Made by a program: the position numbers and the translations under genes
Shown: positions 4,051 through 64,000 of the stretch, one piece after another
Layout: each line of letters begins with the position of its first letter
How positions within the stretch are numbered: position 1 is the first letter of the stretch
Notes under the pieces: generated by a model
Databases searched by the model: none
Told to the model about the DNA's origin: nothing
Seen by the model: the letters and a program-made list of their open reading frames with translations, nothing else
Assembly (NCBI GenBank): GCA_032622095.1
Contig: CP136062.1
Location: forward strand, 224,702,578-224,766,577
DNA: 64,000 bases
Source: Siphonodentalium dalli
Taxonomy: Eukaryota; Mollusca; Scaphopoda; Gadilida; Siphonodentaliidae
Direction of reading: 5' to 3'

Positions 4051-5113
4051 CAGTCAATAGGAAGAAATTTTTTTCCAACTCACCTACGTCTGGAGGACGG
4101 AGGCTGCAAAGTCGGTACCCGGTCCTTTGGTGATTTTTCTTGTGGTAGTACTTTTGGAAAGTACTCTCACGGCTCCAGCCAGCCTTTGCCATGATTTCCT
4201 TCATAGGCACGATGGTGAAGGCTTTAGAAGTAGAAGCAGCTCTGACACTGAGCTGTAAATACGGATGTGTCGATTCCTGATTTGGTCAGGACAGTTCTGA
4301 TCCAACGTGAAATGGTGGTTGTGGTAACCTTCCTGTGAGGGTTTACATAACTTATAAACAAAGAATCCTCATTTTTTCGCAAACATTGTGTCCTTTTGAG
4401 GTATTCTGTCACCACAGTGTAAATACATAATCTCCTATCTGGAGGATATGAACTAAATTCTAAAAACCGTTCCTCGGAAAAGCCAGCCCGGCTATGTTTT
4501 AATAATCCCTGGATATAAAACAAGTATTTGGAGTGCGTTCTTCGCTTTCCAGTAATTGTCAATACGTGTAATGTTTGCACTCTTGCTGCATATAAAAGAG
4601 AGGCGAGCATCGCCAATTTCAGCGTTAAGTCCTTTAAACTTAAGCCACAAACAGGAGACATAGTTTGTAGTAGTCGCAGGACCACATCGACATCCCACGT
4701 GATGGCTGTTGGTTTAGTAGGTGGCCTCAAATTAAAAGCTCCTTTCATGAACCGGAGTACAATGGGATTTGATCCTGCCGGAAACTGATCTAACCGAAGC
4801 CCTAACGCAGAGAGAGCTGACCTAGCTGTATTGAGTGAGCTGTAACTCTGAAACAACATACTCAAATATTCTATTACTTCTGGGACAGTTGGTGAAACTG
4901 GATTAACTTTCCGGTCGTTGCAGTACTTGAACCATCGCGTAATATAAACTGAGTACTGTTTTTTGGTAGATGGACGCCAGGAGCATAAGATAATGTCGGT
5001 AGAGTACTGAGAAAATCCTGTACTTCGGAATTGTTCCCTGAGACACGACATGCCATTAATTTTAGTTTGGGGAATAACGGATGGACATCCGCTGACCGTG
5101 GACGGCGCAACAA
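4001..5113 (-). pseudogene. DIRS tyrosine recombinase, frameshifted
   Basis: The main frame (5051-4224) has the N-terminal SAM-like part (SWRPSTKKQYSVYITRW) and the first catalytic arginine in AARVQTLHVL, where tyrosine recombinases have box I. It continues to TISRWIRTVLTKSGID, just before the HxxR box. There the frame breaks near 4247, so the His/Arg box is split between frames. The frame ending at 4001 then resumes with AGWSRESTFQKYYHK, which carries the catalytic tyrosine. One small indel is enough to explain the break. The family cuts and rejoins DNA through a tyrosine-DNA intermediate, to insert the circular DNA form of the element. The upstream 5113-5052 segment (LLRRPRSADVHPLFPKL) is in another frame and may be its N terminus. 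Confidence 0.85.
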
Positions 5114-5159
5114 GTCCGGTTGATGTGACAGGAGTCGTAGATAGTCGTGAGAGCTGTCA

Positions 5160-6940
5160 TTAGCACTGAAAACTTGGCCATACCGGTAGAATTAGAATGC
5201 ACATGGCTAGGTCCCGCGCAATCTTTTGTATGCAGCGAGCAATGAGACTGAAAGGAGGAAACAAATAACATAAGTGATAGTTTCCCCATGGAATGGTGAA
5301 TGCATCAATGTGTTTGGCTCCTGGATCCAAGTGCCAGGAACAATATGTTGTAACCTTGGCGGTTAATCGTGAAGCAAATAAATCAATTTCTGGGGGACCC
5401 CAAAGGTTGCATTATTGACTGAAGACGGTAGCATTCAGCGCCCAATCAAGGCGGTCATTAAACTGCCGAGATGGAGCATCCGCAACATTCACAGACCCAG
5501 GTATGTGAGAAATTGATAACCACATGTTATTGAGTTGACAGTACTGCCATATGTCAAGACTTACGCCATTACACAGGATGGACTTAACCCCGCCCATGTT
5601 TTTAACATAAGCCATGGCTGTAGTACTATCAGTTAAAATAAGAACATGCTGATTTTTCAAGTTTGGTTAAAAAGCCTGTAAACTGAACTTGATTGCGAGT
5701 AATTCCAAGCAATTTATATGCATACCACTCTCACATACAGACCAGCGGCCACCTATGGAATCACCAGAGCTGACCGCGCCCCAACCATTCATACTACTGT
5801 CAGTATAAACTGTAACAGTTGGAGTTCCATGATCGATGCGACGGACCTGGTTGTCAACATTCAACACCCACCAACTAAGTTCCCTTTTCATGGGTTCAGT
5901 TATAGCCATATTGGCATCAAACGAACCACAGTTCTGTTTGAGAGTTTTAATTTTATTGATTTCTAACTGGCGATAATGAAGTTTTGCATACTCCACCGCA
6001 GAAAATGTTGAAATTAATAATCCGATAACACTGGCCACTGTTCGAATAGAAGCATGATCGAGATTAAAGAGATCAGTGCAACCTTTTTTGACCTTTAGTT
6101 GTTTCTCGAGTGGCAGTGAAACGGTCATAGTCTCTGTATGTATAACATTTCCGAGATAAGTTATTTTCTGACTATAAATGAGAACTGACTTAGTTGGGTG
6201 AATAGTGAATCCAAGTCCGGACAGTAACGAGGCAGTGATATGAATATTCATAGAACATAGAGAAGCGGAGGCTCCCATACAAAGAATATCATCAATGAAG
6301 CTTGTAGTTGTGAATCCGTCGGATCTCAACTTGGATAAAACAGGTTTCAACAATTTGGTAAACAACCTGGGAGCCGCCGCATAGCCATTGGCGATGCAGG
6401 TATATTGATAAAGGATATCTTTCCATCTGAAGCGAAAGTATTTTTGATGTTGTTCAGCCAGAGACACTGCATAGTATGCGTGACGAATATCAATGAGTCC
6501 CAGGTACATACCCGGACGAATGAGAGACAGAGCAGATTCAAATGTCTCCATTTTGAAATGATGGTATGGAACATACTCATTAAATTTTTTAAGATTTAAA
6601 ATGAGCCGAACTTCATTAGTGTTTGGCTTAGGTCGTATGAAGATAGGAGATATAAATTGTCCCGTGTGTCGCACACCTCTTTTATTACGCCGTGCGATAA
6701 AAGTTTTTGAATGGCCAAATTGACCGACGGAATTTCTGAAGTTTTCACCTGATTTGGAATGCAACATCCAATGTATTGAAAACGTGGACCTCTATCTCCA
6801 AATTCGATGTGACAATGCTGAACAACATCCAAAATAATTGGGTCACTTGTAAGTGACCTCCAATTTGTAATAAATTTACACAATTGGCCTGCAACAAACT
6901 TTTCATTATTGCATATAGAAGGGTTAAATTCCAGTGGTTT
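5160..6940 (-). pseudogene. DIRS reverse transcriptase-RNase H, disrupted
   Basis: It is readable in pieces. 6883-6596 holds the N-terminal part (VNLAIQKLLSHGVIKEV). A one-base shift near 6665 moves to the frame 6767-5667, with RT motif A LGLIDIRHAYY, motif C FIDDILCMG (the catalytic Asp pair) and the start of RNase H (YTDSSMNGWG; then CLELLAI with its Glu). An in-frame TAA at 5667-5669 interrupts RNase H, which continues in the same frame with ILTDSTTAMAY and HIPGSVNVADAPSR, giving all four acidic residues. A second in-frame stop at 5412-5414 precedes the conserved DIRS C-terminal extension (PPEIDLFASRL..., FPPFSLIARCIQKI), ending at 5160. The product would copy element RNA into DNA. With three lesions this copy is inactive unless these are assembly errors. 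Confidence 0.88.
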
Positions 6941-6966
6941 ACATACCTGGGTTTGATTGTAAGAAG

Positions 6967-8133
6967 CTAACGTCGAGTCATCCCTCTGGAGGACCCCCGC
7001 TTGGATTTTTTTCCCCCTCGTGTATAAGTGTATGCTGCTGTGGAACTGGCGTCCCGATATTGGTAACTTCCACGGGTGGGAATTTTTCCACCACCGTGAC
7101 CACGTCCACGACCACGAGTAGATACTTGATGCTGTCCGGAACCATGGGACATGCGGCTTCCTAGTTTGGAGGTATCCTCGATCTCTCTAGCTGTTTCGGA
7201 AATATTATCGCCGAACAACTGACTCGTGTATGGACGCGAGTGAGTGCACAACTGCACATAGTTGGAATTTAAGTCTGGCTTTAGAAGCTCTCGACGGATC
7301 ATGTTGATTTGGAAATTCCCGTGGCCTAACAAAGCCATCGCATCGTTGGTATCATCTATGAGTCGGCCAATTTCCGGACACTCTGTCTCGAGACGGGCCG
7401 CTGTATCCAGGACCTTTGAGAGTATTACAGCTGACTTTATCAGAGAGAGTTCGATGTTTTGTAATTTGACATCGTGGGATCGAACAGGTGCTGACAACAC
7501 ATCCCAAATGATCTGGTTTACACGCACTGTCTGCAAACCGACACAATTCTCTGGACGGGCATTTTGTTCGTCCTTGGTTAGGGATCGATGCTGTTCTTCA
7601 GCAATGCCCTTCAAAAACATCGCAGAAATTGACTCTGCAAGAACAGGTTCGATTTTTGGTGCCAGAATTTCTTGGCTTTTCATACGTTTTGCCATATTAC
7701 TAAATCGGCTGCTGGAAGGAATATCCTCAGCACCATTCCCAAAGTCTGCATGACTTGTTGTTTCAAATTGTTCTGATTCGGCATCGCCAGTGTCAGAATA
7801 TGAATAATGGTATTCACCTTGACCATGCTCGAGGTCAGTGAGCCGAGAAGCCATCTCTACAATTCTACCACCCTGTACCTGCTGCGTTTCAGCAATTTGA
7901 CGCAGGTGTTTTAAAATTTCGGCGCTCATCGAGTCGCTCGCAGTTTGTGGCCTCGGTCTAATTTCCGATTTCGAGGCAGAATTCGTAAGAGCCGGCGATG
8001 CCGGTACTTTTTGCTTCCCTTTTGTACTGCCCGTAAGCGCTGGCTTCTGCGAATCCGCTTCAGTACTTATAGGTATGATTCCAACTACGTTGGGATCTTT
8101 TTGTGACATATTTTCTTCTTTGTCGGCAAACAC
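6967..8133 (-). CDS. DIRS Gag-like protein, intact frame
   Basis: A 388-codon frame lies just upstream of the RT region, in the position of ORF1 in DIRS elements. The N terminus is Lys/Ser/Pro-rich and low in complexity. Residues about 70-110 (AEILKHLRQIAETQQ) look like a short coiled coil. A conserved-looking helical core follows (about residues 150-320). The C terminus is rich in Arg, Gly and Ser (RGRGRGHGGG), as expected for nucleic-acid binding. I see no CCHC zinc knuckle, which is usual for DIRS Gag. The first Met is followed by another eight codons later, and either could be used. The stop is about 30 bases from where RT homology begins, so RT may be made by overlap or frameshift. It is the only unbroken frame in this element. 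Confidence 0.75.
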   Translation of the reverse strand: MFADKEENMSQKDPNVVGIIPISTEADSQKPALTGSTKGKQKVPASPALTNSASKSEIRPRPQTASDSMSAEILKHLRQIAETQQVQGGRIVEMASRLTDLEHGQGEYHYSYSDTGDAESEQFETTSHADFGNGAEDIPSSSRFSNMAKRMKSQEILAPKIEPVLAESISAMFLKGIAEEQHRSLTKDEQNARPENCVGLQTVRVNQIIWDVLSAPVRSHDVKLQNIELSLIKSAVILSKVLDTAARLETECPEIGRLIDDTNDAMALLGHGNFQINMIRRELLKPDLNSNYVQLCTHSRPYTSQLFGDNISETAREIEDTSKLGSRMSHGSGQHQVSTRGRGRGHGGGKIPTRGSYQYRDASSTAAYTYTRGGKKSKRGSSRGMTRR

Positions 8134-8189
8134 GTGCCAGTAATTTGTTAAGAAAATTGTCGTGACTTTCTTCGTTGACGCTTAAAGCA

Positions 8190-17450: not shown

Positions 17451-17703
17451 CATTCAGTTATAAAAGTATACATTGGAACAGTCTATTATACATTTGAAGG
17501 GGTGTTCAGATAAAAAAAAAAAATTTAATCACTTGAGTTTGAGTTTGAGCTAATATAACTTCATGGTATAAACTTGGAACTTCCCCAGGTCAAAGCTGAC
17601 AGAAAATAGCAATTGCTCACTGTACTCAGTCTTTAAAGGCTGAATGAGTTACATGATAGATAAAAATGACTTTGAGATCCTGTGTGACTTTATGCACATA
17701 CCC

Positions 17704-18360
17704 CAGCCTCTATATTTACTCACGTGTTGATTCACAGAAGTAAGGAAGGGCAGATGAGATATCAGTCTGGTATGTTAGACCTATGTACGTGTGGCAATAT
17801 GTCAGAATACATACACCACAGCCTCTATATTTACTCACGTGTTGATTCACAGAAGTAAGGAAGGGCAGATGAGACATCAGTCTGGTATGTTAGACCTATG
17901 TACGTGTGGCAATATGTCAGAATAGATATACCACAGCCTCTATATTTACTCACGTGTTGATTCACAGAAGTAAGGAAGGGCAGATGAGATATCAGTCCGG
18001 TATGTTAGACCTATGTACGTGTGGCAATATGTCAGAATACATACACCACAGCCTCTATATTTACTCACGTGTTGATTCACAGAAGTATGGAAGGGCAGAT
18101 GAGATATCAGTCTGGTATGTTAGACCTATGTACGTGTGGCAATATGTCAGAATACATATACCACAGCCTCTATATTTACTCACGTGTTGATTCACAGAAG
18201 TAAGGAAGGGCAGATGAGATATCAGTCTGGTATGTTAGACCTATGTACGTGTGGCAATATGTCAGAATACATATACCACAGCCTCTATATTTACTCACGT
18301 GTTGATTCACAGAAGTAAGGAAGGGCAGATGAGATATCAGTCTGGTATGTTAGACCTGTG
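17704..18360. repeat. 115-bp tandem array, about 5.7 copies
   Basis: The unit begins near cctctatatttactcacgtg and includes gattcacagaagtaagg and gtatgttagacctatgtacg. Units start at about 17708, 17823, 17938, 18053, 18168 and 18283, a strict 115-base spacing with only a few substitutions. Since 115 is not a multiple of three, the short open frames seen in it shift between units and are not real genes. Confidence 0.9.
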
Positions 18361-18445
18361 TAGTTTCCCATTCTGCAGGAGAAATAGAGAAATAATGTTA
18401 AAAGTCAAACATGCAAACCTGGTAAACAAAAGTCAATACAGCGAC

Positions 18446-19453: not shown

Positions 19454-19660
19454 ACCACATCTTAGAAGATGACACACTGAAATTTATGCCAGTGTATATG
19501 CATTACAAAGTTCCCTCTACATTTTCTGACTATTACTAGACAATGGATGGTATCATAATCCATGCTCAATATATGCACACAAAAATAATAAAAGCCTCCC
19601 TCCGTCACTGATTTTCAAAAATAGATTCCTGAGAATCCAACTAATTTTTTATTTTGGCCT

Positions 19661-20205
19661 TATAATATATTTGGTGTGTTGTAATATGAAATGCATGGTT
19701 ATAATATATATTTCTATAATATATTTGGTGTGTTGTAATATGAAATGCATGGTTATAATATATATTTTTATAATATATTTGATGTGTTGTAATATGAAAT
19801 GCATGGTTATAATATATAATTTTATAATATATTTGGTGTGTTGTAATATGAAATGCATGGTTATTATATAATATATATTTTTATAATATATTTGGTGTGT
19901 TGTAATATGAAATGCATGGTTATAATATATATTTCTATAATATATTTGGTGTGTTGCAATATGAAATGCATGGTTATAATATATATTTTTATAATATATT
20001 TGATGTGTTGTAATATGAAATGCATGGTTATAATATATAATTTTATAATATATTTGGTGTGTTGTAATATGAAATGCATGGTTATTATATAATATATATT
20101 TTTATAATATATTTGGTGTGTTGTAATATGAAATGCATGGTTATAATATATATTTTTATAATATATTTAGTGTGTTGTAATATGAAATGCATGGTTATAA
20201 TTTCT
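19661..20205. repeat. 54-bp tandem array with four-unit higher-order repeat
   Basis: Unit starts (at ttggtgtgtt or a variant) fall at 19671, 19725, 19779, 19833, 19892, 19946, 20000, 20054, 20113 and 20167. That is three steps of 54 and one of 59, repeated, giving a 221-base higher-order unit. Variants such as gatgtg recur in the same slot of each set. 54 is divisible by three, so both strands show spurious open frames. Confidence 0.9.
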
Positions 20206-40853: not shown

Positions 40854-42290
40854 TGTTACAGTCAGATTGTGAAACCAGTCATTTCGTGAAATGACTAAAC
40901 CTTTCATTCATTTCACGAAATGACTGTGGGGGGCCAGTCATTTCATGAAATGACTGAAATTTCCAGTCATTTCATGAAATGACTGTAATTTAGTTATATT
41001 CTTTACACAATCTGACTAATTTCAGTCAACTTGTGTAATTTCACATGTATGCTGCTACAATTCACAGTAGAGTAAATGTCGGAAATATCTTATTCCCAAG
41101 GATGACTACTTTAAGACAATAGAAGAATTCAAAGTTGCCAATGAGTTATCAAACACAAAGTCTCGTCATGAATACTATTCAACAGGTTTGAAATTCTTCA
41201 ATGTGGTGATATTCAGAAACTTAACAAGAAGTGCCAGACATCCGATGAACTGCCAGTCCACTATACTTCGACATAATCAAGAGGGCCCATATCGCAACTG
41301 GCATTGGCGGTAGAGATAGAATGATGAAGGAACTATCAGTGAAGTACGCCAACATTCTGAGAGATGATGTCGAGCTGTTCAAGTCGGTGTGCCAGGAGTG
41401 CCAGAAAATGAGGAAACGTCCAATAACCAAGGCAGTAGTTGTGAACCAATCCTGATGACGGAGTTCGCACCCAGAGGACAGATTGACCTTATCGACATGC
41501 AGTCCATGAGCCACAACAGTTTCAAGTGGATCATGGTGTACCAGGACCACTTGACCAAGTTTTGTATTCTACGGCCACTGACTTCTAAACAAGCCACTGA
41601 GGTAGCGTTCCAGCAATATAGGAGACAATGTTGCTACTCCCATTTCCCAAGTTGATCGCGGCTGTGGCGATCCGCCAAACATTATCGGTGTGATTGTGTG
41701 TCGAGACGACAAAATGTACAAGATTGCTACAAGAAGTGGTATCCTGAAAGGCAGCTATTTGCATAACCAATTCGAAGTTTGTCCTGAACGACTTCTGACT
41801 GACAAAGACATTGATCAAAGCACCGAGCTTTCCCTCCGACAGGCCGCTACTCAATCTTAGATAAGTGGAGGACAAGGTTTCGTGAAATGTTCCTGTAGTG
41901 GTCCGAACAAGTGTAAGACGAGAAGGTGTAAATGCTTCAAGGCGAAACTACTTTGCAATAGCCGGTCCCACAACAGTTTGAGCTGCTCCATTAAGTAAGA
42001 CTCTTGTGTGTTGATATTACATGTGACTCTAATCATTTGAAACTATTTCATTGTATATTTTTATGTTTCTATTACATTTATGATTTATTATTATGAATAA
42101 CAATTTTAAAATTAAATCAAGTGGTAATATTAAGTTCACTATTGAACCAAAAACAGTGTTCAGTCATTTCGTGAAATGACTGGCCACGAATTTCAGTCAT
42201 TTCATGAAATGACTGACCCCCACAGTCATTTCATGAAATGACTGAACATTTTAGTCACGAAATGACTGGTTTCACAATCTGACTGTAACA
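40854..42290 (+). mobile_element. Ginger-like DNA transposon, degraded
   Basis: The ends are TGTTACAGTCAGATTGTGAA and its complement ...CTGACTGTAACA, with a 4-bp target duplication CATA (40850-40853, 42291-42294). A TGTNR start and a 4-bp duplication are the described Ginger signature. Both termini carry repeated 22-base perfect palindromes centred on tttcatgaaa, several per side. The interior holds a decayed integrase-type transposase on the plus strand. Confidence 0.82.
41080..41998 (+). pseudogene. Ginger/KRBA2-like integrase pseudogene
   Basis: It is readable in three pieces. First comes a zinc-binding-type segment (IIKRAHIATGIGGRDRMMKE; CQECQKMRKRP) at about 41260-41440. Then, in another frame, comes the start of the DDE integrase core (GQIDLIDMQSM, WIMVYQDHLTKF) at about 41470-41610. 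The rest of the core is missing. Last comes a C-terminal part (NIIGVIVCRDDKMYKIATR; HNQFEVCPERLL), an internal TAG, and a Cys-rich tail (GFVKCSCS...KCKTRRCKC...LLCNSR) ending at 41998. The layout is that of integrases related to vertebrate KRBA2. It has two frame changes, an internal deletion and a stop, and it is inactive. Confidence 0.75.
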
Positions 42291-48164: not shown

Positions 48165-49455
48165 GCCCCCACATACGATATGATGGGGAAAATATAATAT
48201 TTATGGGTGAAATCATTCCTCAAAGTTACTGCGGTTCACTACCGCTCTTCGAGTCGGCGGGCGGACATAATTATATATAAATTTAATTTTCTGCCGTAAA
48301 ACTATGATATTTGGCTTATTTATCGGAGCTGGTTTCTACAAATCAGCTGATGTTTCTACATAATCGTGAAGGTCTATCTTTTGCCAACAAGTCTATACAT
48401 GACATGATGAGGAAAAAATAATATTTATGGGTGAAATCATTGCTCAAATTTAGTGCGGTTCACTAGCGCTCTTCGAGTCGGCGGGCGGACATAATTATAT
48501 ATAAATTAAATTTTCTGCCGTAAAACTATGATATTTGGCGTTATTTATCGGAGCTGGTTTGTACAAATCAGCTGATGGTTTTACATAATCATGAAGGTCT
48601 ATCTTTTGCCAACAAGTCTATACATGACATAATGGGGAAGAAATGATATTTATGGGTGAAATCATTGCTCAAAGTTACTGCGGTTCACTACTGCTCTTCG
48701 AGTCGGCGGCGGACATAACTATATATAAATTAAATTTTTTGCTGTAAACTATGACATTTGGCGTTATTTATCAGAGCTGGTTTGTACAAATCAGCTGATG
48801 TTTTTACATAATCGTGAAGGTCTATCTTTTGCCAACAAGTCTATACATGACAATGGGCAAACAGTAATATTTATGGGTGAAATCATTGCTCAAAGTTACT
48901 GCGGTTCACTACCGCTCTTCGAGTCGGCAGGCGGACATACATGTAATTATATATAAATTAAATTTTCTGCCGTAAAACTATGATATTTGGCTTTATTTAT
49001 CGGAGCTGGTTTGTACAAATCAGCTGAATTTTTTACATAATCGTGAAGGTCTATCTTTTGCCAACAAGAACATATACGATATGATGGGGAAAATATAATA
49101 TTTATGGGTGAAATAATTCCTCAAAGTTACTGCGGTTCACTACCGCTCTTTGAGTCGGCGGACGGACATAATTATATATAAATTAAATTTTCTGCCGTAA
49201 AACAATGACATTTGGCGTTATTTGTCGGAGCTGGTTTGTACAAATCAGCTGATGTTTTTACATAATCGTGAAGGTCTATCTTTTGCCAACAAGTCTATAC
49301 ATGACATGATGGGGAAAAAATAATATTTATTGGTGAAATCATTCCTCAAAGTTACTGCGGTTCACTACCGCTCTTCGAGTCGGCGGCCGGACATAATTAT
49401 ATATAAATTAAATTTTCTGCCGTAAAACTATGACATTCGGCTTTATTTGTCGGCG
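48165..49455. repeat. 225-bp tandem array, about 5.7 copies
   Basis: The unit includes actgcggttcactaccgctc, ttcgagtcggcgg, ataattatatataaatt, ctatcttttgccaacaag and atcagctgatg. Equivalent points lie at 48244, 48468, 48693, 48914, 49145 and 49370 (steps of 224, 225, 221, 231 and 225). Units differ by small indels, so the array is older than the 48-bp array. Non-coding. Confidence 0.9.
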
Positions 49456-50043: not shown

Positions 50044-51312
50044 CTACTTATTTGGTTTACAGTCAAATATTGTAAAGCTGTTTTTGTCCGTTTCTGCGAA
50101 ATAAAATAATGCAGTAAATATTCCAGAGGTGGTTATGAAAAACAACAAAGTCACTTTAAAGAAGACGGAATCAAGTCTTTCATGTAGCGAGTCAAACCAT
50201 TTCCGTTTTGTGACCTCATCCCGAAATTCTAAAAGCTGTTGACCTTCCACGTTCTTCACCCTGGCGATAAACGCACATGCTCTCAGCACAGGTTTGCTTG
50301 CTCTTTCAATGTTGCAGTTTATTATCGTCAGTATAACTGACACTGAGCTTTGTCCGAGCATCACTGTTATATAAACTTCAAGCAGACAGATGTTATCACC
50401 ATTCGCTGGTAGAATCGACGAAATGAAGTTTAAGATAATGATGTATGATAAAAGAACTGTTACCGAATACGAAATGCGTTCTCCACAATGTACTGGGATC
50501 TGGAATGAGAGGATCTTTAGCAGGCTCAAAATCAGCAACGGAATGATCGTGTTCATTACAATGAACGCTGGTCTCCTCTCCAATACTAGTTTTACGACAT
50601 AAAAGCCTGAATGGTTTCCTTGTTGAACATTTCCGATGATTTTCCAGTTACTGTTCTCCGATATAATACATGGTGCTTCTTTCCCTGCGTCTTTTTTTGG
50701 CTTTAAATTTGTTTGTATCTCAGTCCGTCCATATGACCAGTCCTCAAATATCAAATAGCATACTTGTTGGTCAAACGGGAAGTATGAAATTTTAACGTTA
50801 CAGTCACTCTTGAAAATTGATCCTGGGAGCCAAGAAATATTTCCGTCATTCTTTATAGTTACCTTCGTCAATTTATCATAAAGATTAATCCGCGATTCCT
50901 GAAAGTTTGTCAGTTCTATATGCGGCAGCCAAATTTTTTCAGCCGGAAGCACGATTTCCGAAATGTTGCCATATTCTGACATATTCCACTGTATTGTTTC
51001 ATCTGTCCAACGAACATCCAGAAATCCTGTCGTCCACAGAACTTGGTCGATTTCGTCAAGTTTGAAGACTTTCATTAAATCGAAAGACATTTCTATATCA
51101 AGAGTTTTCTGCCCATGTTTCACTGGTATGATATCCGAGATATGTTCTTTAGTAATATGATCGTATAACAGTTTAAGGTGCGTGTCTAATGCATTGCCAC
51201 ATGGAAAGAACAGGATGAGAAAAACAACTGCAAACATCATTATTGTAGCACAATTACAATGATTTTCGATTAAACTCTGTTGCAGCCATAATCCTTTGGT
51301 AACACTTAGCAA
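50044..51312 (-). CDS. Nicotinic-receptor-like Cys-loop ion channel subunit, single exon
   Basis: A full-length subunit of a pentameric ligand-gated channel. A second Met pair (residues 25-26, codon at 51240) directly precedes the hydrophobic signal peptide (FAVVFLILFF) and is the likelier start. The extracellular domain runs to about residue 246 and has WLP in loop A, the Cys loop C171-C185 with FPFDQQ between, and DWSYG in loop B. The vicinal Cys pair of alpha subunits is absent in loop C (a lone C215), so ACh binding on its principal face is unlikely. M1 is about 247-270, M2 about 277-300 (GERISYSVTVLLS, nicotinic-like), M3 about 308-332 and M4 about 382-406. The M3-M4 loop is only about 48 residues. 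No intron interrupts it, suggesting retroposition, as for many molluscan nicotinic-like genes. Family clear, ligand unknown. Confidence 0.9.
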   Translation of the reverse strand: MLSVTKGLWLQQSLIENHCNCATIMMFAVVFLILFFPCGNALDTHLKLLYDHITKEHISDIIPVKHGQKTLDIEMSFDLMKVFKLDEIDQVLWTTGFLDVRWTDETIQWNMSEYGNISEIVLPAEKIWLPHIELTNFQESRINLYDKLTKVTIKNDGNISWLPGSIFKSDCNVKISYFPFDQQVCYLIFEDWSYGRTEIQTNLKPKKDAGKEAPCIISENSNWKIIGNVQQGNHSGFYVVKLVLERRPAFIVMNTIIPLLILSLLKILSFQIPVHCGERISYSVTVLLSYIIILNFISSILPANGDNICLLEVYITVMLGQSSVSVILTIINCNIERASKPVLRACAFIARVKNVEGQQLLEFRDEVTKRKWFDSLHERLDSVFFKVTLLFFITTSGIFTALFYFAETDKNSFTIFDCKPNK

Positions 51313-52945
51313 CTGAGTTGTCTATGAATATTCCATATGACACATCATATCATACGCTTGACAACATTAAAATAAATAAACAAATTCCAAATTTACAGTT
51401 CAGACATGCGATAATTATATAGCCTGCATTGAAAGCTGGTTCATTAGTTCCATGCCTAAATATTCAGAATAATAATCCGTGAATAAATGAGTTTTCAAAA
51501 GACCTTTGAATTCGATCATCATATCCAGGACATCTGCGGATGAACACCTGTAGAGAATTCCAGAGCCAGTCCAGCTATGGAAAACGATATGTCACCGAAA
51601 CTACCTTCGTGTGCACTAATAGCATTAGTCCTGATATGTTTTCAGTGAATATCCAGTTCTCATTTGGCTTTTATCACCAGAACCTGAAGCGGAATGTTTT
51701 ATACAGAATTTTGTAGCATAAACAAGATAGTTCACGACCATTTGTTTACCATCCCATTTAGAAGGGAAACAAAGTCTGTAATGATTATTGTATCCACTTT
51801 AGCACCCATTATGGTTCCAAGTATGGTATCATGTTCACTACAAAGTCAAACACATGAATAATGCATTTCTGTTTATTTAGTAGCGCTAACATTATTTTCT
51901 GTATGGCAATTACAGCTTCCCAGCTAAAGGTCAGCGACATTTGATGCACTTTACTTGTTTTTAAGATTGAATCCATTGTCTTGGTTAAATATTTGCTAAC
52001 AGGATTTTGACTCATTTTCTGTAATACCATTTTGCTATTTAATAACTTTTTAATGGAAGCCGAGGTTCGGTATTTATTAAGAACTGGATGTTGTTTTGCT
52101 TACACTCCATAGAGTATGGATGCATTTTGTGTGGAATGTGAGTTCCATGCATAAAAATGTCAGACCTTTCTCGGCACATTGAAGATGTACAACATATTTG
52201 GTGATTATGCACTTTGTATCATACTGGTGTAATCAATTCCTCCTACAGTTTGTATAATAGGGATCTGAAACCCTTAAATCCTTCAAACCTGCCACCTTCA
52301 TTGGGGGGGACATTTTGTTGAGTGATCTTTTATTACACTTTAGGAGGAGGAAAATAAAAATATCTCTACATGGATGATTACTGACTGAGCTTGTCCATAT
52401 AACATTGAAACTGTACCTAGTTTTGTTGCACTTTTCATTGTGTCATAATTGTATATCGTTTGTTTTCCTATTTATTGCATGTATAACACCTATTTTGTAA
52501 ACTTCATCTTTACACCCTATTGTGGGTATACAATTTCCTACTGTGGGTATAAATTTCTACTGTGGTGTAAACGTAATTTCATGTGCTAAAGGTTTATACC
52601 AATAGTAGAACTACATCTTAGTTAGAAAATTAGTTCTTATGTCACATTCATTTAAAATTGGAAGTTGTCATGATATTTATTAGATATGAGGAAAATTGCC
52701 TGCATTTCAATCAAATGTGGCACTGTAGCTTCCTAGTGTTATATGAAGTATAGGAAACATATGGATGGTAATTCCGAGTGAGTTATCGTTCAGAAACAGG
52801 CTGATGTCATGACATAAATGTATGCATCGCTATGCACATTCCTTATAGAATCGTGTTTGTGTCTCTCGGTGTGGATACACATTCAAAGTAAACAACGGAG
52901 TTGTTGAATTCGCAGAACAAATACAAAATAATAATTATGGCATAA
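51313..52945. other. Non-coding, 5' side of the receptor gene
   Basis: Nothing coding is recognised. A phrase near 52230 (ggtgtaatcaattcctccta) resembles one at 39360 (gtgtaatcaactcctcccac), suggesting a shared old repeat. A promoter for the receptor gene would lie just above 51312, but I see no decisive element. Confidence 0.4.
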
Positions 52946-54734: not shown

Positions 54735-54911
54735 GTTGAATCTATTTGGTAGCTGTCTGGCTCCAGCTGGACTAATTTTGTCTATGACGACTTCTATTTC
54801 TGAGGAGGTATCCTCTATGTATTTTAGGTATATTGCTGAATGTATTTGGTAGCTGTCTGGCGTCTGCTCCAGGTGGATTAATTTCGTCTATGACGGCTTC
54901 TATTTCTGATG
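54735..54911 (-). repeat. Two-copy direct repeat, possibly exon-derived
   Basis: 54735-54805 and 54836-54911 are similar (tatttggtagctgtctggc, tctatgacg(a/g)cttctatttctga). On the minus strand both read without stops as related peptides (SEIEAVIDEINPPG and SEIEVVIDKISPAG, each then ARQLPN). Upstream on this strand, TTTGTTTGCAG at about 54941-54951 is a plausible splice acceptor. This may be a coding exon duplicated in place, just beyond the 48-bp array. The function is unknown. Confidence 0.4.
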
Positions 54912-55013
54912 TTCTGTCGGTGGATGTGGCTTCCATGCTGCAAACAAAGCTGCAGGATATTGTGCCTGTAAGTGCAAACACATGCACATTATTAGTAAAC
55001 CTAATCCGACATG

Positions 55014-58000
55014 TTAATAGCCCAGCCCCTCAAACAGAGCTGTCATCTTACCTGGAGTGTCCTGGGTTACTATCCCCTCAATCAGAGCTGTCATCTTACC
55101 TGGAGTGTCCTGGGTTACTATCCCCACAATCAGAGCTGTCATCTTACCTGGAGTGTCCTGGGTTACTATCCCCTCAATCAGAGCTGTCATCTTACATGGA
55201 GTGTCCTGGGTTACTATCCCCTCAAACAGAGCTGTCATCTTACCTGGGGTGTCCTGGGTTACTATCCCCTCAATCAGAGCTGTCATCTTACCTGGAGTGT
55301 CATGGGTTACTATCCCCTCAATCAGAGCTGTCATCTTACCTGGAGTGTCCTGGGTTACAATCCCCACAATCAGAGCTGTCATCTTACCTGGAGTGTCCTG
55401 GGTTACTATCCCCTCAATCAGAGCTGTCATCTTACATGGAGTGTCCTGGGTTACTATCCCCTCAATCAGAGCTGTCATCTTACATGGAGTGTCCTGGGTT
55501 ACTATCCCCTCAATCAGAGCTGTCATCTTACCTGGAGTGTCCTGGGTTACTATCCCCTCAATCAGAGCTGTCATCTTACATGGAGTGTCCTGGGTTACTA
55601 TCCCCTCAATCAGAGCTGTCATCTTACCTGGAGTGTCCTGGGTTACTATCCCCTCAAACAGAGCTGTCATCTTACCTGGAGTGTCCTGGGTTACTATCCC
55701 CACAATCAGAGCTGTCATCTTACCTGGAGTGTCCTGGGTTACTATCCCCTCAATCAGAGCTCTCATCTTACCTGGAGTGTCCTGGGTTACTATCCCCTCA
55801 AACAGAGCTGTCATCTTACCTGGAGTGTCCTGGGTTACTATCCCCTCAAACAGATCTGTCATCTTACCTGGAGTGTCCTGGGTTACTATCCCCTCAAACA
55901 GAGCTGTCATCTTACCTGGAGTGTCCTGGGTTACTATCCCCTCAAACAGAGCTGTCATCTTACCTGGAGTGTCCTGGGTTACTATCCCCTCAAACAGAGC
56001 TGTCATCTTACCTGGAGTGTCCTGGGTTACTATCCCCTCAAACAGAGCTGTCATCTTACCTGGAGTGTCCTGGGTTACTATCCCCTCAAACAGAGCTGTC
56101 ATCTTACCCGGAGTGTCCTGTGTTACTATCCCCTCAAACAGAGCTGTCATCTTACCTGGAGTGTCCTGGGTTACTATCCCCTCAAACAGAGCTGTCATCT
56201 TACCTGGAGTGTCCTGGGTTACTATCCCCTCAATCAGAGCTGTCATCTTACCTGGAGTGTCCTGGGTTACTATCCCCTCAATCAGAGCTGTCATCTTACC
56301 TGGAGTGTCCTGGGTTACTATCCCCTCAATCAGAGCTGTCATCTTACCTGGAGTGTCCTGGGTTACTATCCCCTCAATCAGAGCTGTCATCTTACCTGGA
56401 GTGTCCTGTGTTACTATCCCCACAATCAGAGCTGTCATCTTACCTGGAGTGTCATGGGTTACTATCCCCTCAATCAGAGCTGTCATCTTACCTGGAGTGT
56501 CCTGGGTTACTATCCCCTCAATCAGAGCTGTCATCTTACCTGGAGTGTCCTGGGTTACTATCCCCTCAATCAGAGCTGTCATCTTACCTGGAGTGTCCTG
56601 GGTTACAATCCCCACAATCAGAGCTCTCATCTTACCTGGAGTGTCATGGGTTACTATCCCCTCAATCAGAGCTGTCATCTTACCTGGAGTGTCCTGGGTT
56701 ACAATCCCCACAATCAGAGCTGTTATCTTACCCGGAGTGTCCTGGGTTACTATCCCCTCAAACAGAGCTGTCAACTTACCTGGAGTGTCCTGGGTTACTA
56801 TCCCCTCAATCAGAGCTGTCATCTTACCTGGAGTGTCCTGGGTTACTATCCCCTCAAACAGAGCTGTCAACTTACCTGGAGTGTCCTGGGTTACAATCCC
56901 CACAATCAGAGCTGTCATCTTACCTGGAGTGTCCTGGGTTACTATCCCCTCAATCAGAGCTGTCAACTTACCTGGAGTGTCATGGGTTACAATCCCCTCA
57001 ATCAGAGCTGTCATCTTACATGGAGTGTCATGGGTTACTATCCCCTCAAACAGAGCTGTCATCTTACCTGGAGTGTCCTGGGTTACTATCCCCTCAATCA
57101 GAGCTGTCATCTTACCTGGAGTGTCCTGGGTTACTATCCCCTCAATCAGAGCTGTCATCTTACCTGGAGTGTCCTGGGTTACAATCCCCTCAATCAGAGC
57201 TGTCATCTTACATGGAGTGTCCTGGGTTACTATCCCCTCAAACAGAGCTGTCATCTTACCTGGAGTGTCCTGGGTTACTATCCCCACAATCAGAGCTCTC
57301 ATCTTACCTGGAGTGTCATGGGTTACTATCCCCTCAATCAGAGCTGTCATCTTACCTGGAGTGTCCTGGGTTACAATCCCCACAATCAGAGCTGTTATCT
57401 TACCCGGAGTGTCCTGGGTTACTATCCCCTCAAACAGAGCTGTCAACTTACCTGGAGTGTCCTGGGTTACTATCCCCTCAATCAGAGCTGTCATCTTACC
57501 TGGAGTGTCCTGGGTTACTATCCCCTCAAACAGAGCTGTCAACTTACCTGGAGTGTCCTGGGTTACAATCCCCACAATCAGAGCTGTCATCTTACCTGGA
57601 GTGTCCTGGGTTACTATCCCCTCAATCAGAGCTGTCAACTTACCTGGAGTGTCATGGGTTACAATCCCCTCAATCAGAGCTGTCATCTTACATGGAGTGT
57701 CCTGGGTTACTATCCCCTCAATCAGAGCTGTCATCTTACCTGGAGTGTCCTGGGTTACAATCCCCTCAATCAGAGCTGTCATCTTACCTGGAGTGTCCTG
57801 GGTTACAATCCCCTCAATCAGAGCTGTCATCTTACCTGGAGTGTCCTGGGTTACTATCCCCTCAATCAGAGCTGTCATCTTACCTGGAGTGTCCTGGGTT
57901 ACTATCCCCTCAATCAGAGCTGTCATCTTACCTGGAGTGTCCTGGGTTACTATCCCCTCAATCAGAGCTGTCATCTTACCTGGAGTGTCCTGGGTTACTA

Positions 58001-61000
58001 TCCCCTCAATCAGAGCTGTCATCTTACCTGGAGTGTCCTGGGTTACTATCCCCTCAAACAGAGCGGTCATCTTACCTGGAGTGTCCTGGGTTACTATCCC
58101 CTCAATCAGAGCTCTCATCTTACCTGGAGTGTCCTGGGTTACTATCCCCACAATCAGAGCTGTCATCTTACCTGGAGTGTCCTGGGTTACTACCCCCTCA
58201 ATCAGAGCTGTCATCTTACCTGGAGTGTCCTGGGTTACTATCCCCTCAATCAGAGCTGTCATCTTACCTGGGGTGTCCTGGGTTACTATCCCCTCAATCA
58301 GAGCTGTCATCTTACCTGGAGTGTCCTGGGTTACTATCCACTCAAACAGAGCTGTCATCTTACCTGGAGTGTCATGGGTTACTATCCCCTCAATCAGAGC
58401 TGTCATCTTACCTGGAGTGTCCTGGGTTACTATCCCCTCAATCAGAGCTGTCATCTTACCTGGAGTGTCCTGGGTTACTATCCCCTCAATCAGAGCTGTC
58501 ATCTTACCTGGAGTGTCCTGGGTTACAATCCCCACAATCAGAGCTGTCATCTTACCTGGAGTGTCCTGGGTTACTATCCCCTCAATCAGAGCTGTCATCT
58601 TACCTGGAGTGTCCTGGGTTACAATCCCCTCAAACAGAGCTGTCATCTTACATGGAGTGTCCTGGGTTACTATCCCCTCAATCAGAGCTGTCATCTTACC
58701 TGGAGTGTCCTGGGTTACAATCCCCTCAAACAGAGCTGTCATCTTACCTGGAGTGTCCTGGGTTACTATCCCCTCAATCAGAGCTGTCATCTTACCTGGA
58801 GTGTCCTGGGTTACTATCCCCTCAATCAGAGCTGTCATCTTACCTGGAGTGTCCTGGGTTACTATCCCCTCAATCAGAGCTGTCATCTTACCTGGAGTGT
58901 CCTGGGTTACTATCCCCTCAATCAGAGCTGTCATCTTACCTGGAGTGTCCTGGGTTACTATCCCCTCAAACAGAGCGGTCATCTTACCTGGAGTGTCCTG
59001 GGTTACTATCCCCTCAATCAGAGCTCTCATCTTACCTGGAGTGTCCTGGGTTACTATCCCCACAATCAGAGCTGTCATCTTACCTGGAGTGTCCTGGGTT
59101 ACTACCCCCTCAATCAGAGCTGTCATCTTACCTGGAGTGTCCTGGGTTACTATCCCCTCAATCAGAGCTGTCATCTTACCTGGGGTGTCCTGGGTTACTA
59201 TCCCCTCAATCAGAGCTGTCATCTTACCTGGAGTGTCCTGGGTTACTATCCACTCAAACAGAGCTGTCATCTTACCTGGAGTGTCATGGGTTACTATCCC
59301 CTCAATCAGAGCTGTCATCTTACCTGGAGTGTCCTGGGTTACTATCCCCTCAATCAGAGCTGTCATCTTACCTGGAGTGTCCTGGGTTACTATCCCCTCA
59401 ATCAGAGCTGTCATCTTACCTGGAGTGTCCTGGGTTACAATCCCCACAATCAGAGCTGTCATCTTACCTGGAGTGTCCTGGGTTACTATCCCCTCAATCA
59501 GAGCTGTCATCTTACCTGGAGTGTCCTGGGTTACAATCCCCTCAAACAGAGCTGTCATCTTACATGGAGTGTCCTGGGTTACTATCCCCTCAATCAGAGC
59601 TGTCATCTTACCTGGAGTGTCCTGGGTTACAATCCCCTCAAACAGAGCTGTCATCTTACCTGGAGTGTCCTGGGTTACTATCCCCTCAATCAGAGCTCTC
59701 ATCTTACCTGGAGTGTCCTGGGTTACAATCCCCTCAATCAGAGCTGTCATCTTACCTGGAGTGTCCTGGGTTACAATCCCCTCAAACAGAGCTGTCATCT
59801 TACCTGGAGTGTCCTGGGTTACTATCCCCTCAATCAGAGCTCTCATCTTACATGGAGTGTCCTGGGTTACTATCCCCTCAATCAGAGCTGTCATCTTACC
59901 TGGAGTGTCCTGGGTTACAATCCCCTCAAACAGAGCTGTCATCTTACCTGGAGTGTCCTGGGTTACTATCCCCTCAATCAGAGCTGTCATCTTACCCGGA
60001 GTGTCCTGGGTTACTATCCCCTCAATCAGAGCGGTCATCTTACCCGGAGTGTCCTGGGTTACTATCCCCTCAATCAGAGCGGTCATCTTACCCGGAGTGT
60101 CCTGGGTTACTATCCCCTCAATCAGAGCTGTCATCTTACCTGGAGTGTCCTGGGTTACAATCCCCACAATCAGAGCTGTCATCTTACCTGGAGTGTCCTG
60201 GGTTACTATCCCCTCAATCAGAGCTGTCATCTTACCTGGAGTGTCATGGGTTACTATCCCCTCAATCAGAGCTGTCATCTTACCTGGAGTGTCCTGGGTT
60301 ACTATCTCCTCAAACAGAGCTGTCATCTTACCTGGAGTGTCCTGGGTTACTATCCCCACAATCAGAGCTGTCATCTTACCTGGAGTGTCCTGGGTTACTA
60401 TCCCCTCAATCAGAGCTGTCATCTTACCCGGAGTGTCATGGGTTACAATCCCCTCAATCAGAGCTGTCATCTTACCTGGAGTGTCAAGGGTTACAATCCC
60501 CTCAATCAGAGCTGTCATCTTACCTGGGGTGTCCTGGGTTACTATCCCCTCAATCTGAGCTGTCATCTTACCTGGAGTGTCATGGGTTACAATCCCCTCA
60601 ATCAGAGCTGTCATCTTACCCGGAGTGTCCTGGGTTACAATCCCCACAATCAGAGCTGTCATCTTACCTGGAGTGTCATGGGTTACTATCCCCTCAATCA
60701 GAGCTCTCATCTTACCTGGAGTGTCATGGGTTACTATCCCCTCAATCAGAGCTGTCATCTTACCTGGAGTGTCCTGGGTTACTATCCCCTCAAACAGAGC
60801 TGTCATCTTACCTGGAGTGTCCTGGGTTACAATCCCCACAATCAGAGCTGTCATCTTACCTGGAGTGTCATGGGTTACTATCCCCACAATCAGAGCTGTC
60901 ATCTTACCTGGAGTGTCCTGGGTTACTATCCCCTCAATCAGAGCTGTCATCTTACCTGGAGTGTCCTGGGTTACTATCCCCTCAATCAGAGCTGTCATCT

Positions 61001-63335
61001 TACCTGGAGTGTCCTGGGTTACTATCCCCTCAATCAGAGCTGTCATCTTACCTGGAGTGTCCTGGGTTACTATCCTCTCAATCAGAGCTGTCATCTTACC
61101 TGGAGTGTCCTGGGTTACTATCCCCTCAATCAGAGCTGTCATCTTACCTGGAGTGTCCTGGGTTACTATCCCCTCAATCAGAGCTGTCATCTTACATGGA
61201 GTGTCCTGGGTTACTATCCCCTCAATCAGAGCTGTCATCTTACCTGGAGTGTCCTGGGTTACTATCCCCTCAATCAGAGCTGTCATCTTACATGGAGTGT
61301 CCTGGGTTACAATCCCCACAATCAGAGCTGTCATCTTACCTGGAGTGTCCTGGGTTACTATCCCCTCAATCAGAGCTGTCATCTTACCTGGAGTGTCCTG
61401 GGTTACAATCCCCTCAAACAGAGCTGTCATCTTACCTGGAGTGTCCTGGGTTACTATCCCCTCAATCAGAGCTGTCATCTTACCTGGAGTGTCATGGGTT
61501 ACTATCCCCTCAATCAGAGCTGTCATCTTACCTGGAGTGTCCTGGGTTACAATCCCCTCAAACAGAGCTGTCATCTTACATGGAGTGTCCTGGGTTACTA
61601 TCCCCTCAATCAGAGCTGTCATCTTACCTGGAGTGTCCTGGGTTACTATCCCCTCAATCAGAGCTGTTATCTTACCTGGAGTGTCCTGGGTTACAATCCC
61701 CACAATCAGAGCTGTCATCTTACCTGGAGTGTCCTGGGTTACTATCCCCTCAATCAGAGCTGTCATCTTACCTGGAGTGTCCTGGGTTACTATCCCCTCA
61801 AACAGAGCTGTCATCTTACCTGGAGTGTCCTGTGTTACTATCCCCTCAATCAGAGCTGTCATCTTACCTGGAGTGTCCTGGGTTACTATCCCCTCAATCA
61901 GAGCTGTTATCTTACCCGGAGTGTGCTGGGTTACTATCCCCTCAATCAGAGCTGTCATCTTACCTGGAGTGTCCTGGGTTACTATCCCCTCAATCAGAGC
62001 TGTCATCTTACCTGGAGTGTCCTGGGTTACAATCCCCACAATCAGAGCTGTCATCTTACCTGGGGTGTCATGGGTTACTATCCCCTCAATCAGAGCTGTC
62101 ATCTTACCTGGAGTGTCCTGGGTTACTATCCCCTCAATCAGAGCTGTCAACTTACCTGGAGTGTCCTGGGTTACTATCCCCTCAAACAGAGCTGTCATCT
62201 TACCTGGAGTGTCCTGGGTTACTATCCCCTCAATCAGAGCTGTCATCTTACCTGGAGTGTCCTGGGTTACTATCCCCTCAATCAGAGCTGTCATCTTACC
62301 TGGAGTGTCCTGGGTTACTATCCCCTCAATCAGAGCTGTCATCTTACCTGGAGTGTCCTGGGTTACAATCCCCACAATCAGAGCTGTCATCTTACCTGGA
62401 GTGTCTTGGGTTACTATCTCCTCAATCAGAGCTGTCATCTTACCTGGAGTGTCCTGGGTTACTATCCCCTCAAACAGAGCTGTCATCTTACATGGAGTGT
62501 GCTGGGTTACTATCCCCTCAATCAGAGCGGTCATCTTACCCGGAGTGTCATGGGTTACTATCCCCTCAATCAGAGCTGTCATCTTACCTGGAGTGTCCTG
62601 GGTTACTATCCCCTCAAACAGAGCTGTCATCTTACCTGGAGTGTCCTGGGTTACTATCCCCTCAATCAGAGCTGTTATCTTACCTGGAGTGTCCTGGGTT
62701 ACTATCCCCACAATCAGAGCTGTCATCTTACCTGGAGTGTCCTGGGTTACTATCCCCTCAATCAGAGCTGTTATCTTACCTGGAGTGTCCTGGGTTACAA
62801 TCCCCACAATCAGAGCTGTCATCTTACCTGGAGTGTCCTGGGTTACTATCCCCTCAATCAGAGCTGTCATCTTACCTGGGGTGTCATGGGTTACTATCCC
62901 CTCAATCAGAGCTGTCATCTTACCTGGAGTGTCCTGGGTTACAATCCCCACAATCAGAGCTGTCATCTTACCTGGAGTGTCCTGGGTTACTATCTCCTCA
63001 ATCAGAGCTGTCATCTTACCTGGAGTGTCCTGGGTTACAATCCCCACAATCAGAGCTGTCATCTTACCTGGAGTGTCCTGTGTTACTATCCCCTCAAACA
63101 GAGCTGTCATCTTACCTGGAGTGTCCTGGGTTACTATCCCCTCAATCAGAGCTGTCATCTTACCTGGAGTGTCCTGGGTTACTATCTCCTCAATCAGAGC
63201 TGTCATCTTACCTGGAGTGTCCTGGGTTACTATCCCCTCAATCAGAGCTGTCATCTTACCTGGAGTGTCCTGGGTTACAATCCCCACAATCAGAGCTGTC
63301 ATCTTACCTGGAGTGTCCTGGGTTACAATCCCCAC
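55014..63335 (-). CDS. 2773-codon open frame through the 48-bp array (uncertain coding)
   Basis: The minus strand reads as a 16-residue repeat, GIVTQDTPGKMTALIE, about 173 times, then GLGY and a stop 3-4 codons after the array ends. A further 222 in-frame codons (63972-63304) are separated by a 2-base deletion. Residue variants are E/V at 16, I/F at 15, G/C at 9, Q/H at 5, M/I/L at 11 and T/R at 12. They include many replacement changes, with no obvious bias to silent ones. No signal peptide or non-repeat domain is visible. Openness is expected for any stop-free unit of 48 bases, and the opposite strand is also open for 1833 codons (55057-60558). I list it because a repetitive protein cannot be excluded. 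Confidence 0.2.
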   Translation of the reverse strand: MGIVTQDTPGKMTALIVGIVTQDTPGKMTALIEGIVTQDTPGKMTALIEEIVTQDTPGKMTALIEGIVTQDTPGKMTALFEGIVTQDTPGKMTALIVGIVTQDTPGKMTALIEEIVTQDTPGKMTALIVGIVTQDTPGKMTALIEGIVTHDTPGKMTALIEGIVTQDTPGKMTALIVGIVTQDTPGKITALIEGIVTQDTPGKMTALIVGIVTQDTPGKITALIEGIVTQDTPGKMTALFEGIVTQDTPGKMTALIEGIVTHDTPGKMTALIEGIVTQHTPCKMTALFEGIVTQDTPGKMTALIEEIVTQDTPGKMTALIVGIVTQDTPGKMTALIEGIVTQDTPGKMTALIEGIVTQDTPGKMTALIEGIVTQDTPGKMTALFEGIVTQDTPGKLTALIEGIVTQDTPGKMTALIEGIVTHDTPGKMTALIVGIVTQDTPGKMTALIEGIVTQDTPGKMTALIEGIVTQHTPGKITALIEGIVTQDTPGKMTALIEGIVTQDTPGKMTALFEGIVTQDTPGKMTALIEGIVTQDTPGKMTALIVGIVTQDTPGKITALIEGIVTQDTPGKMTALIEGIVTQDTPCKMTALFEGIVTQDTPGKMTALIEGIVTHDTPGKMTALIEGIVTQDTPGKMTALFEGIVTQDTPGKMTALIEGIVTQDTPGKMTALIVGIVTQDTPCKMTALIEGIVTQDTPGKMTALIEGIVTQDTPCKMTALIEGIVTQDTPGKMTALIEGIVTQDTPGKMTALIERIVTQDTPGKMTALIEGIVTQDTPGKMTALIEGIVTQDTPGKMTALIEGIVTQDTPGKMTALIVGIVTHDTPGKMTALIVGIVTQDTPGKMTALFEGIVTQDTPGKMTALIEGIVTHDTPGKMRALIEGIVTHDTPGKMTALIVGIVTQDTPGKMTALIEGIVTHDTPGKMTAQIEGIVTQDTPGKMTALIEGIVTLDTPGKMTALIEGIVTHDTPGKMTALIEGIVTQDTPGKMTALIVGIVTQDTPGKMTALFEEIVTQDTPGKMTALIEGIVTHDTPGKMTALIEGIVTQDTPGKMTALIVGIVTQDTPGKMTALIEGIVTQDTPGKMTALIEGIVTQDTPGKMTALIEGIVTQDTPGKMTALIEGIVTQDTPGKMTALFEGIVTQDTPGKMTALIEGIVTQDTPCKMRALIEGIVTQDTPGKMTALFEGIVTQDTPGKMTALIEGIVTQDTPGKMRALIEGIVTQDTPGKMTALFEGIVTQDTPGKMTALIEGIVTQDTPCKMTALFEGIVTQDTPGKMTALIEGIVTQDTPGKMTALIVGIVTQDTPGKMTALIEGIVTQDTPGKMTALIEGIVTQDTPGKMTALIEGIVTHDTPGKMTALFEWIVTQDTPGKMTALIEGIVTQDTPGKMTALIEGIVTQDTPGKMTALIEGVVTQDTPGKMTALIVGIVTQDTPGKMRALIEGIVTQDTPGKMTALFEGIVTQDTPGKMTALIEGIVTQDTPGKMTALIEGIVTQDTPGKMTALIEGIVTQDTPGKMTALIEGIVTQDTPGKMTALFEGIVTQDTPGKMTALIEGIVTQDTPCKMTALFEGIVTQDTPGKMTALIEGIVTQDTPGKMTALIVGIVTQDTPGKMTALIEGIVTQDTPGKMTALIEGIVTQDTPGKMTALIEGIVTHDTPGKMTALFEWIVTQDTPGKMTALIEGIVTQDTPGKMTALIEGIVTQDTPGKMTALIEGVVTQDTPGKMTALIVGIVTQDTPGKMRALIEGIVTQDTPGKMTALFEGIVTQDTPGKMTALIEGIVTQDTPGKMTALIEGIVTQDTPGKMTALIEGIVTQDTPGKMTALIEGIVTQDTPGKMTALIEGIVTQDTPGKMTALIEGIVTQDTPGKMTALIEGIVTQDTPCKMTALIEGIVTHDTPGKLTALIEGIVTQDTPGKMTALIVGIVTQDTPGKLTALFEGIVTQDTPGKMTALIEGIVTQDTPGKLTALFEGIVTQDTPGKITALIVGIVTQDTPGKMTALIEGIVTHDTPGKMRALIVGIVTQDTPGKMTALFEGIVTQDTPCKMTALIEGIVTQDTPGKMTALIEGIVTQDTPGKMTALIEGIVTQDTPGKMTALFEGIVTHDTPCKMTALIEGIVTHDTPGKLTALIEGIVTQDTPGKMTALIVGIVTQDTPGKLTALFEGIVTQDTPGKMTALIEGIVTQDTPGKLTALFEGIVTQDTPGKITALIVGIVTQDTPGKMTALIEGIVTHDTPGKMRALIVGIVTQDTPGKMTALIEGIVTQDTPGKMTALIEGIVTQDTPGKMTALIEGIVTHDTPGKMTALIVGIVTQDTPGKMTALIEGIVTQDTPGKMTALIEGIVTQDTPGKMTALIEGIVTQDTPGKMTALIEGIVTQDTPGKMTALFEGIVTQDTPGKMTALFEGIVTQDTPGKMTALFEGIVTQDTPGKMTALFEGIVTQDTPGKMTALFEGIVTQDTPGKMTALFEGIVTQDTPGKMTALFEGIVTQDTPGKMTDLFEGIVTQDTPGKMTALFEGIVTQDTPGKMRALIEGIVTQDTPGKMTALIVGIVTQDTPGKMTALFEGIVTQDTPGKMTALIEGIVTQDTPCKMTALIEGIVTQDTPGKMTALIEGIVTQDTPCKMTALIEGIVTQDTPCKMTALIEGIVTQDTPGKMTALIVGIVTQDTPGKMTALIEGIVTHDTPGKMTALIEGIVTQDTPGKMTALFEGIVTQDTPCKMTALIEGIVTQDTPGKMTALIVGIVTQDTPGKMTALIEGIVTQDTPGKMTALFEGLGY

Positions 63336-64000
63336 AATCAGCTGTCATCTTACCTGGGGTGTCCTGGGTTACAATCCCCTCAAACAGAGCTGTCATCTTA
63401 CCTGGAGTGTCCTGGGTTACTATCCCCTCAATCAGAGCTGTCATCTTACCTGGAGTGTCCTGTGTTACTATCCCCTCAATCAGAGCTGTCATCTTACCTG
63501 GAGTGTCATGGGTTACTATCCCCACAATCAGAGCTGTTATCTTACCTGGAGTGTCCTGGGTTACAATCCCCACAATCAGAGCTGTCATCTTACCTGGAGT
63601 GTCCTGGGTTACTATCCCCTCAATCAGAGCTGTCATCTTACCTGGAGTGTCCTGGGTTACAATCCCCACAATCAGAGCTGTCATCTTACCTGGAGTGTCC
63701 TGGGTTACTATCCCCTCAATCAGAGCTGTCATCTTACCTGGAGTGTCCTGGGTTACTATCCCCTCAATCAGAGCTGTCATCTTACCTGGAGTGTCATGGG
63801 TTACTATCCCCTCAATCAGAGCTGTCATCTTACCTGGAGTGTCATGGGTTACAATCCCCACAATCAGAGCTGTCATCTTACCTGGAGTGTCCTGGGTTAC
63901 TATCCCCTCAATCAGAGCTGTCATCTTACCTGGAGTGTCATGGGTTACTATCCCCTCAATCAGAGCTGTCATCTTACCTGGAGTGTCATGGGTTACAATC
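55019..64000. repeat. 48-bp tandem array, at least 187 units, running past the window edge
   Basis: Unit on the plus strand: atcagagctgtcatcttacc followed by tggagtgtcctgggttacta and tcccctca. The period is exactly 48 for almost 9 kb, with one 2-base deletion near 63340. Units vary at a small set of positions, and the same variants recur (ctcaatcag/ctcaaacag/cacaatcag, ttacta/ttacaa, cctgg/catgg, tgtc/tctc, tcctgg/tcatgg). Multi-unit blocks are themselves duplicated, for example with offsets of 912 and 672 bases. This is a young minisatellite or satellite expanded by unequal exchange or slippage. Confidence 0.97.

Follow-up and report, generated by a model that had tools for sequence, protein, structure and literature searches.

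An expanded 48-bp array, very probably a non-coding minisatellite, in a predicted intron of a duplicated HEATR3/SYO1-family gene of Siphonodentalium dalli

The window analysed here (G000:C2:224702578-224766577), a stretch of 64,000 nucleotides, ends inside a tandem array of 48-bp units. According to TRF, 187.0 copies with 95% matches fall within the window, in agreement with an earlier note made from the letters of the window, which had counted at least 187 near-identical 48-base units. That note had also proposed finding the other array end in the assembly; we located it in the flanking DNA at G000:C2:224784387, and the array, as read from one assembly, spans 26,784 bp (558.0 unit lengths). 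The 187 units cut from the window comprise 53 distinct DNA forms and 28 distinct minus-strand peptides. Local alignments of the unit to ~3 kb of DNA on either side scored no better than alignments to shuffled flanks (P 0.15-0.84, four tests), and Rfam gave no match in the window at gathering scores. Other tandem arrays lie at 48175-49453, 17696-18362 and 19660-20201 (periods of 225, 115 and 54 bp, respectively), and short arrays at 40875-40991 and 42159-42257 surround the palindrome AGTCATTTCATGAAATGACT. On the minus strand, 4224-8181 holds a reverse transcriptase match (PF00078, 3e-15) and, in an adjoining frame, one to an integrase SAM-like domain (PF13495, 9.3e-7); the order of the two would suggest a DIRS-type retroelement.

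The array is placed, as a well-supported prediction, between candidate exons E1 and E2 of a HEATR3/SYO1-family gene on the plus strand (Table 1), probably a gene of ribosome assembly. This gene context was not seen in the earlier note. The predicted E1 donor is GTAAGT, and the array begins 58 bp past it on the plus strand. When joined, the downstream pieces match the Pfam family TPR_SYO1 (PF25567) with 94.1 bits (cut-off 27; 1.3e-26). A genome-wide search with this profile returned 10 plus-strand matches, five in each of two copies of the locus, that follow the order of the profile; six of the 10 exceed the curated cut-off, and the scored stretch of one weak match, in the window's copy, is interrupted by a TAG. 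None of 14 control genomes was matched. Joined alone, E1-E4 reach no Pfam cut-off; their assignment to the SYO1-family gene relies on conservation, position and agreement in strand and phase. PDB searches with the joined exon peptides returned no SYO1 chain. Among 267 open frames on the plus strand at 8300-54880, a crude motif scan brought out no candidate for the amino-terminal exons, the part expected to encode the family's amino-terminal repeats and nuclear import signal. According to PMC10442235, Syo1 (human HEATR3) carries an acidic loop and is an adaptor in the import of uL18 and uL5; the acidic E4 peptide may form part of this loop. The likeness to HEATR3, or symportin-1 (SYO1), as presented there lies in the downstream exons, which match TPR_SYO1 in order and on the same strand; it concerns the likely host gene rather than the array, and here the gene is duplicated. 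Just upstream of the array, the duplicated stop-free segment that the earlier note had seen was recovered as an alignment with one 6-base gap and five mismatches. Its downstream member contains the start of E1, and the upstream member is probably non-coding because the paralogous locus is one base short there.

Table 1. Coordinates of the array, the open frames and the candidate gene features (positions without prefix are those of the window)
Feature	Position	Strand	Basis or remark
48-bp minisatellite array, first 187 of ~558 unit lengths	55026..64000	.	TRF; ends located in flanking DNA
Open frame, 2776 codons stop to stop, judged spurious; unit IVTQDTPGKMTALIEG	55014..63344	-	Interrupted at several later points in the array
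Long frame considered spurious, 9003 codons when followed past the window edge	54788..64000	+	16-residue unit switches at frame-changing intervals
Candidate exon E1, 95 bp	54873..54967	+	AG/GT flanks, open frame, phase fits next exons, identical in paralogue
Candidate intron holding the array (donor at 54968)	54968..64000	+	Acceptor beyond the window, just 5' of E2 at G000:C2:224785106; E2-E4 phases compatible
Candidate exon E2	C2:224785106-224785156	+	Compatible phase
Candidate exon E3	C2:224785981-224786074	+	Compatible phase
Candidate exon E4	C2:224787602-224787696	+	Compatible phase
Incomplete duplicate of the 5' portion of the E1 region	54737..54803	+	Alignment; partner 54837-54909

The locus that reaches into the window (copy B) has a paralogue 141 kb away (copy A), in which the apparent intron and the ends of the array are the same and whose flanks align piecewise to those of copy B at 93.9-97.7%. 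In copy A, the array starts at C2:224616662 and measures 1,363 bp (28.4 unit lengths), so that the two arrays differ 20-fold in length. The first three candidate exons are more conserved than their surroundings: E1-E3 show no difference between the copies in 240 sites, against 175 of 5768 (3%) at the other aligned sites (P=0.0013; sites to the right of A position 224616372, array omitted, with E4 counted among the other sites). A stretch of 126 bases that holds E4 has two differences; by our reading, one of them falls within E4 and is silent in the E4 frame. On the minus strand at 50044-51321, within sequence that also aligns to the duplicated locus, a single open frame of 425 codons matches neurotransmitter-gated ion channel domains (PF02931, 7.8e-43; PF02932, 2.2e-9).

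The right-end and left-junction sequences are common to both copies, one unit variant excepted, and thus an array predates the duplication. None of the 24 exact-length units of copy A carries either of the two commonest variants of copy B (unit position 37, in 103 of 530 units; unit position 44, in 100 of 530), and six other variants are common to both copies; this fits an expansion of copy B after the split, although a contraction of copy A instead is possible. Identical blocks of units occur in four pairs (20, 15, 8 and 6 units long, at spacings of 19, 14, 14 and 7 units, and holding 11, 7, 7 and 5 non-consensus units, respectively), as unequal exchange or gene conversion would be expected to leave behind; by the same criterion, no such blocks appeared in 50 shuffles of unit order. 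The long identical blocks and the length difference from the paralogue agree with the youth that the earlier note had ascribed to the array.

Taken together, we consider it highly probable that the array is a locus-specific, non-coding intronic minisatellite of a plus-strand HEATR3/SYO1-family gene, expanded in one of its copies. The 48-bp array would have been present before the locus was duplicated to its two positions ~141 kb apart; afterward, one copy would have grown to 558 unit lengths, the other now holding ~28, with block duplications of the sort expected of unequal exchange or gene conversion. The unit, by chance on this reading, lacks stops in every plus frame and in one frame of the minus strand, a state that homogenisation would spread along the array. 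The E1-E2 interval would be removed as a spliced intron, and the array itself would have no role of its own.

By analogy with the ABCA7 VNTR, the length of an intronic array might alter splicing or expression of the gene copy that holds it. We regard such a regulatory effect as unlikely here; it would be compatible with the minisatellite reading rather than opposed to it. In its favor, the E1-E2 interval differs by ~25 kb between otherwise similar copies, and inspection of the consensus unit reveals an acceptor-like stretch, CCCCTCAATCAG/AG, on the plus strand and a donor-like CAG/GTAAGA on the minus strand. PMC5954066 reports an association of ABCA7 array length with expression and exon skipping. 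That VNTR resembles the present array in being an intronic tandem array whose length differs greatly between copies, but it is a single human locus that varies between people, whereas we compare paralogues within one assembly and a predicted intron. It is also decidedly improbable, in our estimation, that the 25-kb expansion leads to intron retention in one HEATR3/SYO1 copy and sometimes to very long, low-complexity polypeptides, which would arise because the E1 frame, upon retention, runs without a stop for ~26.8 kb.

The minisatellite reading implies that the unit is confined to this duplicated locus. A whole-genome count of a 32-base core of the unit, with up to three mismatches allowed, gave 583 matches, every one of them on the forward strand; its reversed sequence, used as a control, gave none. 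Copy A accounts for 27 of these matches and copy B for 556, so all of them lie in the two arrays, where neighboring matches are separated by gaps of at most 94 bases. Tandem repeats abound in the window, which would suit a dispersed satellite or a transposon-borne repeat; however, the equality of the genome-wide and two-locus counts makes such an origin very improbable, and all 142 matches listed by a protein search (150 of 808 candidates scored) are likewise in the two loci. A DNA search (one of two candidates scored) listed five matches, all in copy A, and was not used for the locus count. The 48-bp unit is therefore a locus-specific minisatellite at the sensitivity tested, with more divergent relatives elsewhere possible, and the term satellite used by the earlier note is too wide.

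The long open frames of the array are real features of the sequence. On the minus strand, the 2773 codons given by the earlier note become 2776 when counted from stop to stop, and the frame does close just outside the array (...EGLGY, then a stop), as that note had stated. Its plus-strand frame of 1833 codons also exists (55021-60558, 1845 codons), but two longer plus frames of 3071 and 2998 codons, both running past the window edge, had been overlooked. The frame of E1 itself continues unbroken through the splice donor and nearly the whole array, for 9003 codons in copy B and 546 in copy A, and the 9003-codon translation alternates among PQSELSSYLECPGLLS, PSIRAVILPGVSWVTI and PLNQSCHLTWSVLGYY. 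What keeps it open is the absence of stops from all plus frames of the unit; followed over the array, each of the remaining two plus frames meets a few stops. The unit is further stop-free in one minus frame. Among 20,000 shuffled units, 26% are open in at least four of the six frames, 79% on both strands and 14% in all three frames of one strand (for random 48-mers at 38% GC, 9% are open in at least four frames and 56% on both strands). Such long frames thus need no coding.

Variation among units points the same way. After 27 of the 581 unit intervals (26 in copy A, 555 in copy B) were dropped for not being 48 bp long, the remaining 554 units held 559 changes of 41 distinct types. Silent types number 7, 14 and 11 of 41 in the three plus frames (expected from the spectrum of the same data: 23%, 29% and 30%; P 0.46, 0.49 and 0.86) and 13 in the minus frame (expected 25%; P=0.37), so that none of the four open frames has a significant silent excess by distinct types, at the low power that 41 types afford. 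Counted by copies, 38, 252 and 137 of the 559 changes are silent in the plus frames and 183 in the minus frame, which puts the second of the plus frames (45%) and likewise the minus frame (33%) above expectation. In each of these two frames, 103 of the silent copies are the position 37 variant (codon position by our reading); as the excess is mostly one variant spread by homogenisation, we do not take it as selection. Stop-making types occur in all plus frames (2, 1 and 3, expected 2.2, 2.2 and 3.5), with none in the minus frame (expected 1.0). The frame is changed by 24 of the 581 intervals (in copy B, 17 of 47 bp, five of 46 bp and one of 94 bp; in copy A, one of 50 bp), and only three of the 27 odd-length intervals keep it (two of 66 bp, one of 72 bp). 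Eight consecutive 47-bp units form one run, so a frameshifting unit has itself been multiplied. The near-neutral proportions by distinct types answer the comparison of silent and replacement changes that the earlier note had called for and, with the frame-changing units, uphold its argument that a unit divisible by three stays open by homogenisation alone.

These data bear directly on a giant plus-strand exon, in which E1 would read through its donor into the array. The E1 frame is open over about the whole array in both copies, as noted above, and it is the only one of the three plus frames to escape stops. A protein-coding tandem repeat would keep one frame along the array, yet this reading crosses three unrelated 16-residue units by way of the frame-changing intervals. 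The unit is open in each of its plus frames, the silent types show no significant excess, stop-making variants are found in every plus frame, and E1 is closed by a consensus-like donor with phase-compatible candidate exons downstream. Such an exon is accordingly hardly credible.

A minus-strand repeat-protein exon, as the earlier note had allowed, draws on the 2776 open codons that close just outside the array and on the silent excess by copies, but with silent types near expectation and the frame broken across the full array of copy B (2776, 1368, 1221, 82, 82, 120, 228, 1121, 513, 65 and 1115 codons, pieces of at least 60 codons) and in copy A (203 and 276 codons), it is vanishingly improbable. 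A Pfam search with a 328-residue minus-strand translation returned ten family names with no stretch passing on its own, and these were rejected as sums over repeats.

Intronic VNTRs are a known kind of locus, and the array is most likely an ordinary, further instance of the intronic minisatellite or VNTR. Its head-to-tail units of 48 bp fall within the range of roughly 10-100 bp, they occupy one (duplicated) locus, and copy number has changed by gain or loss of blocks (~28 against 558 unit lengths; blocks of 6-20 units). Our literature search returned nothing on intronic minisatellites with open frames or on spurious frames in repeats. The array illustrates clearly how thousands of codons can stay open on both strands, without coding, when the length of a short unit is divisible by three; gene finders may report arrays of this kind as giant repeat proteins. 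The two copies of this HEATR3/SYO1-family locus, one with a short array and one with a long array, provide a natural setting in which to compare the effects of array length in an intron.
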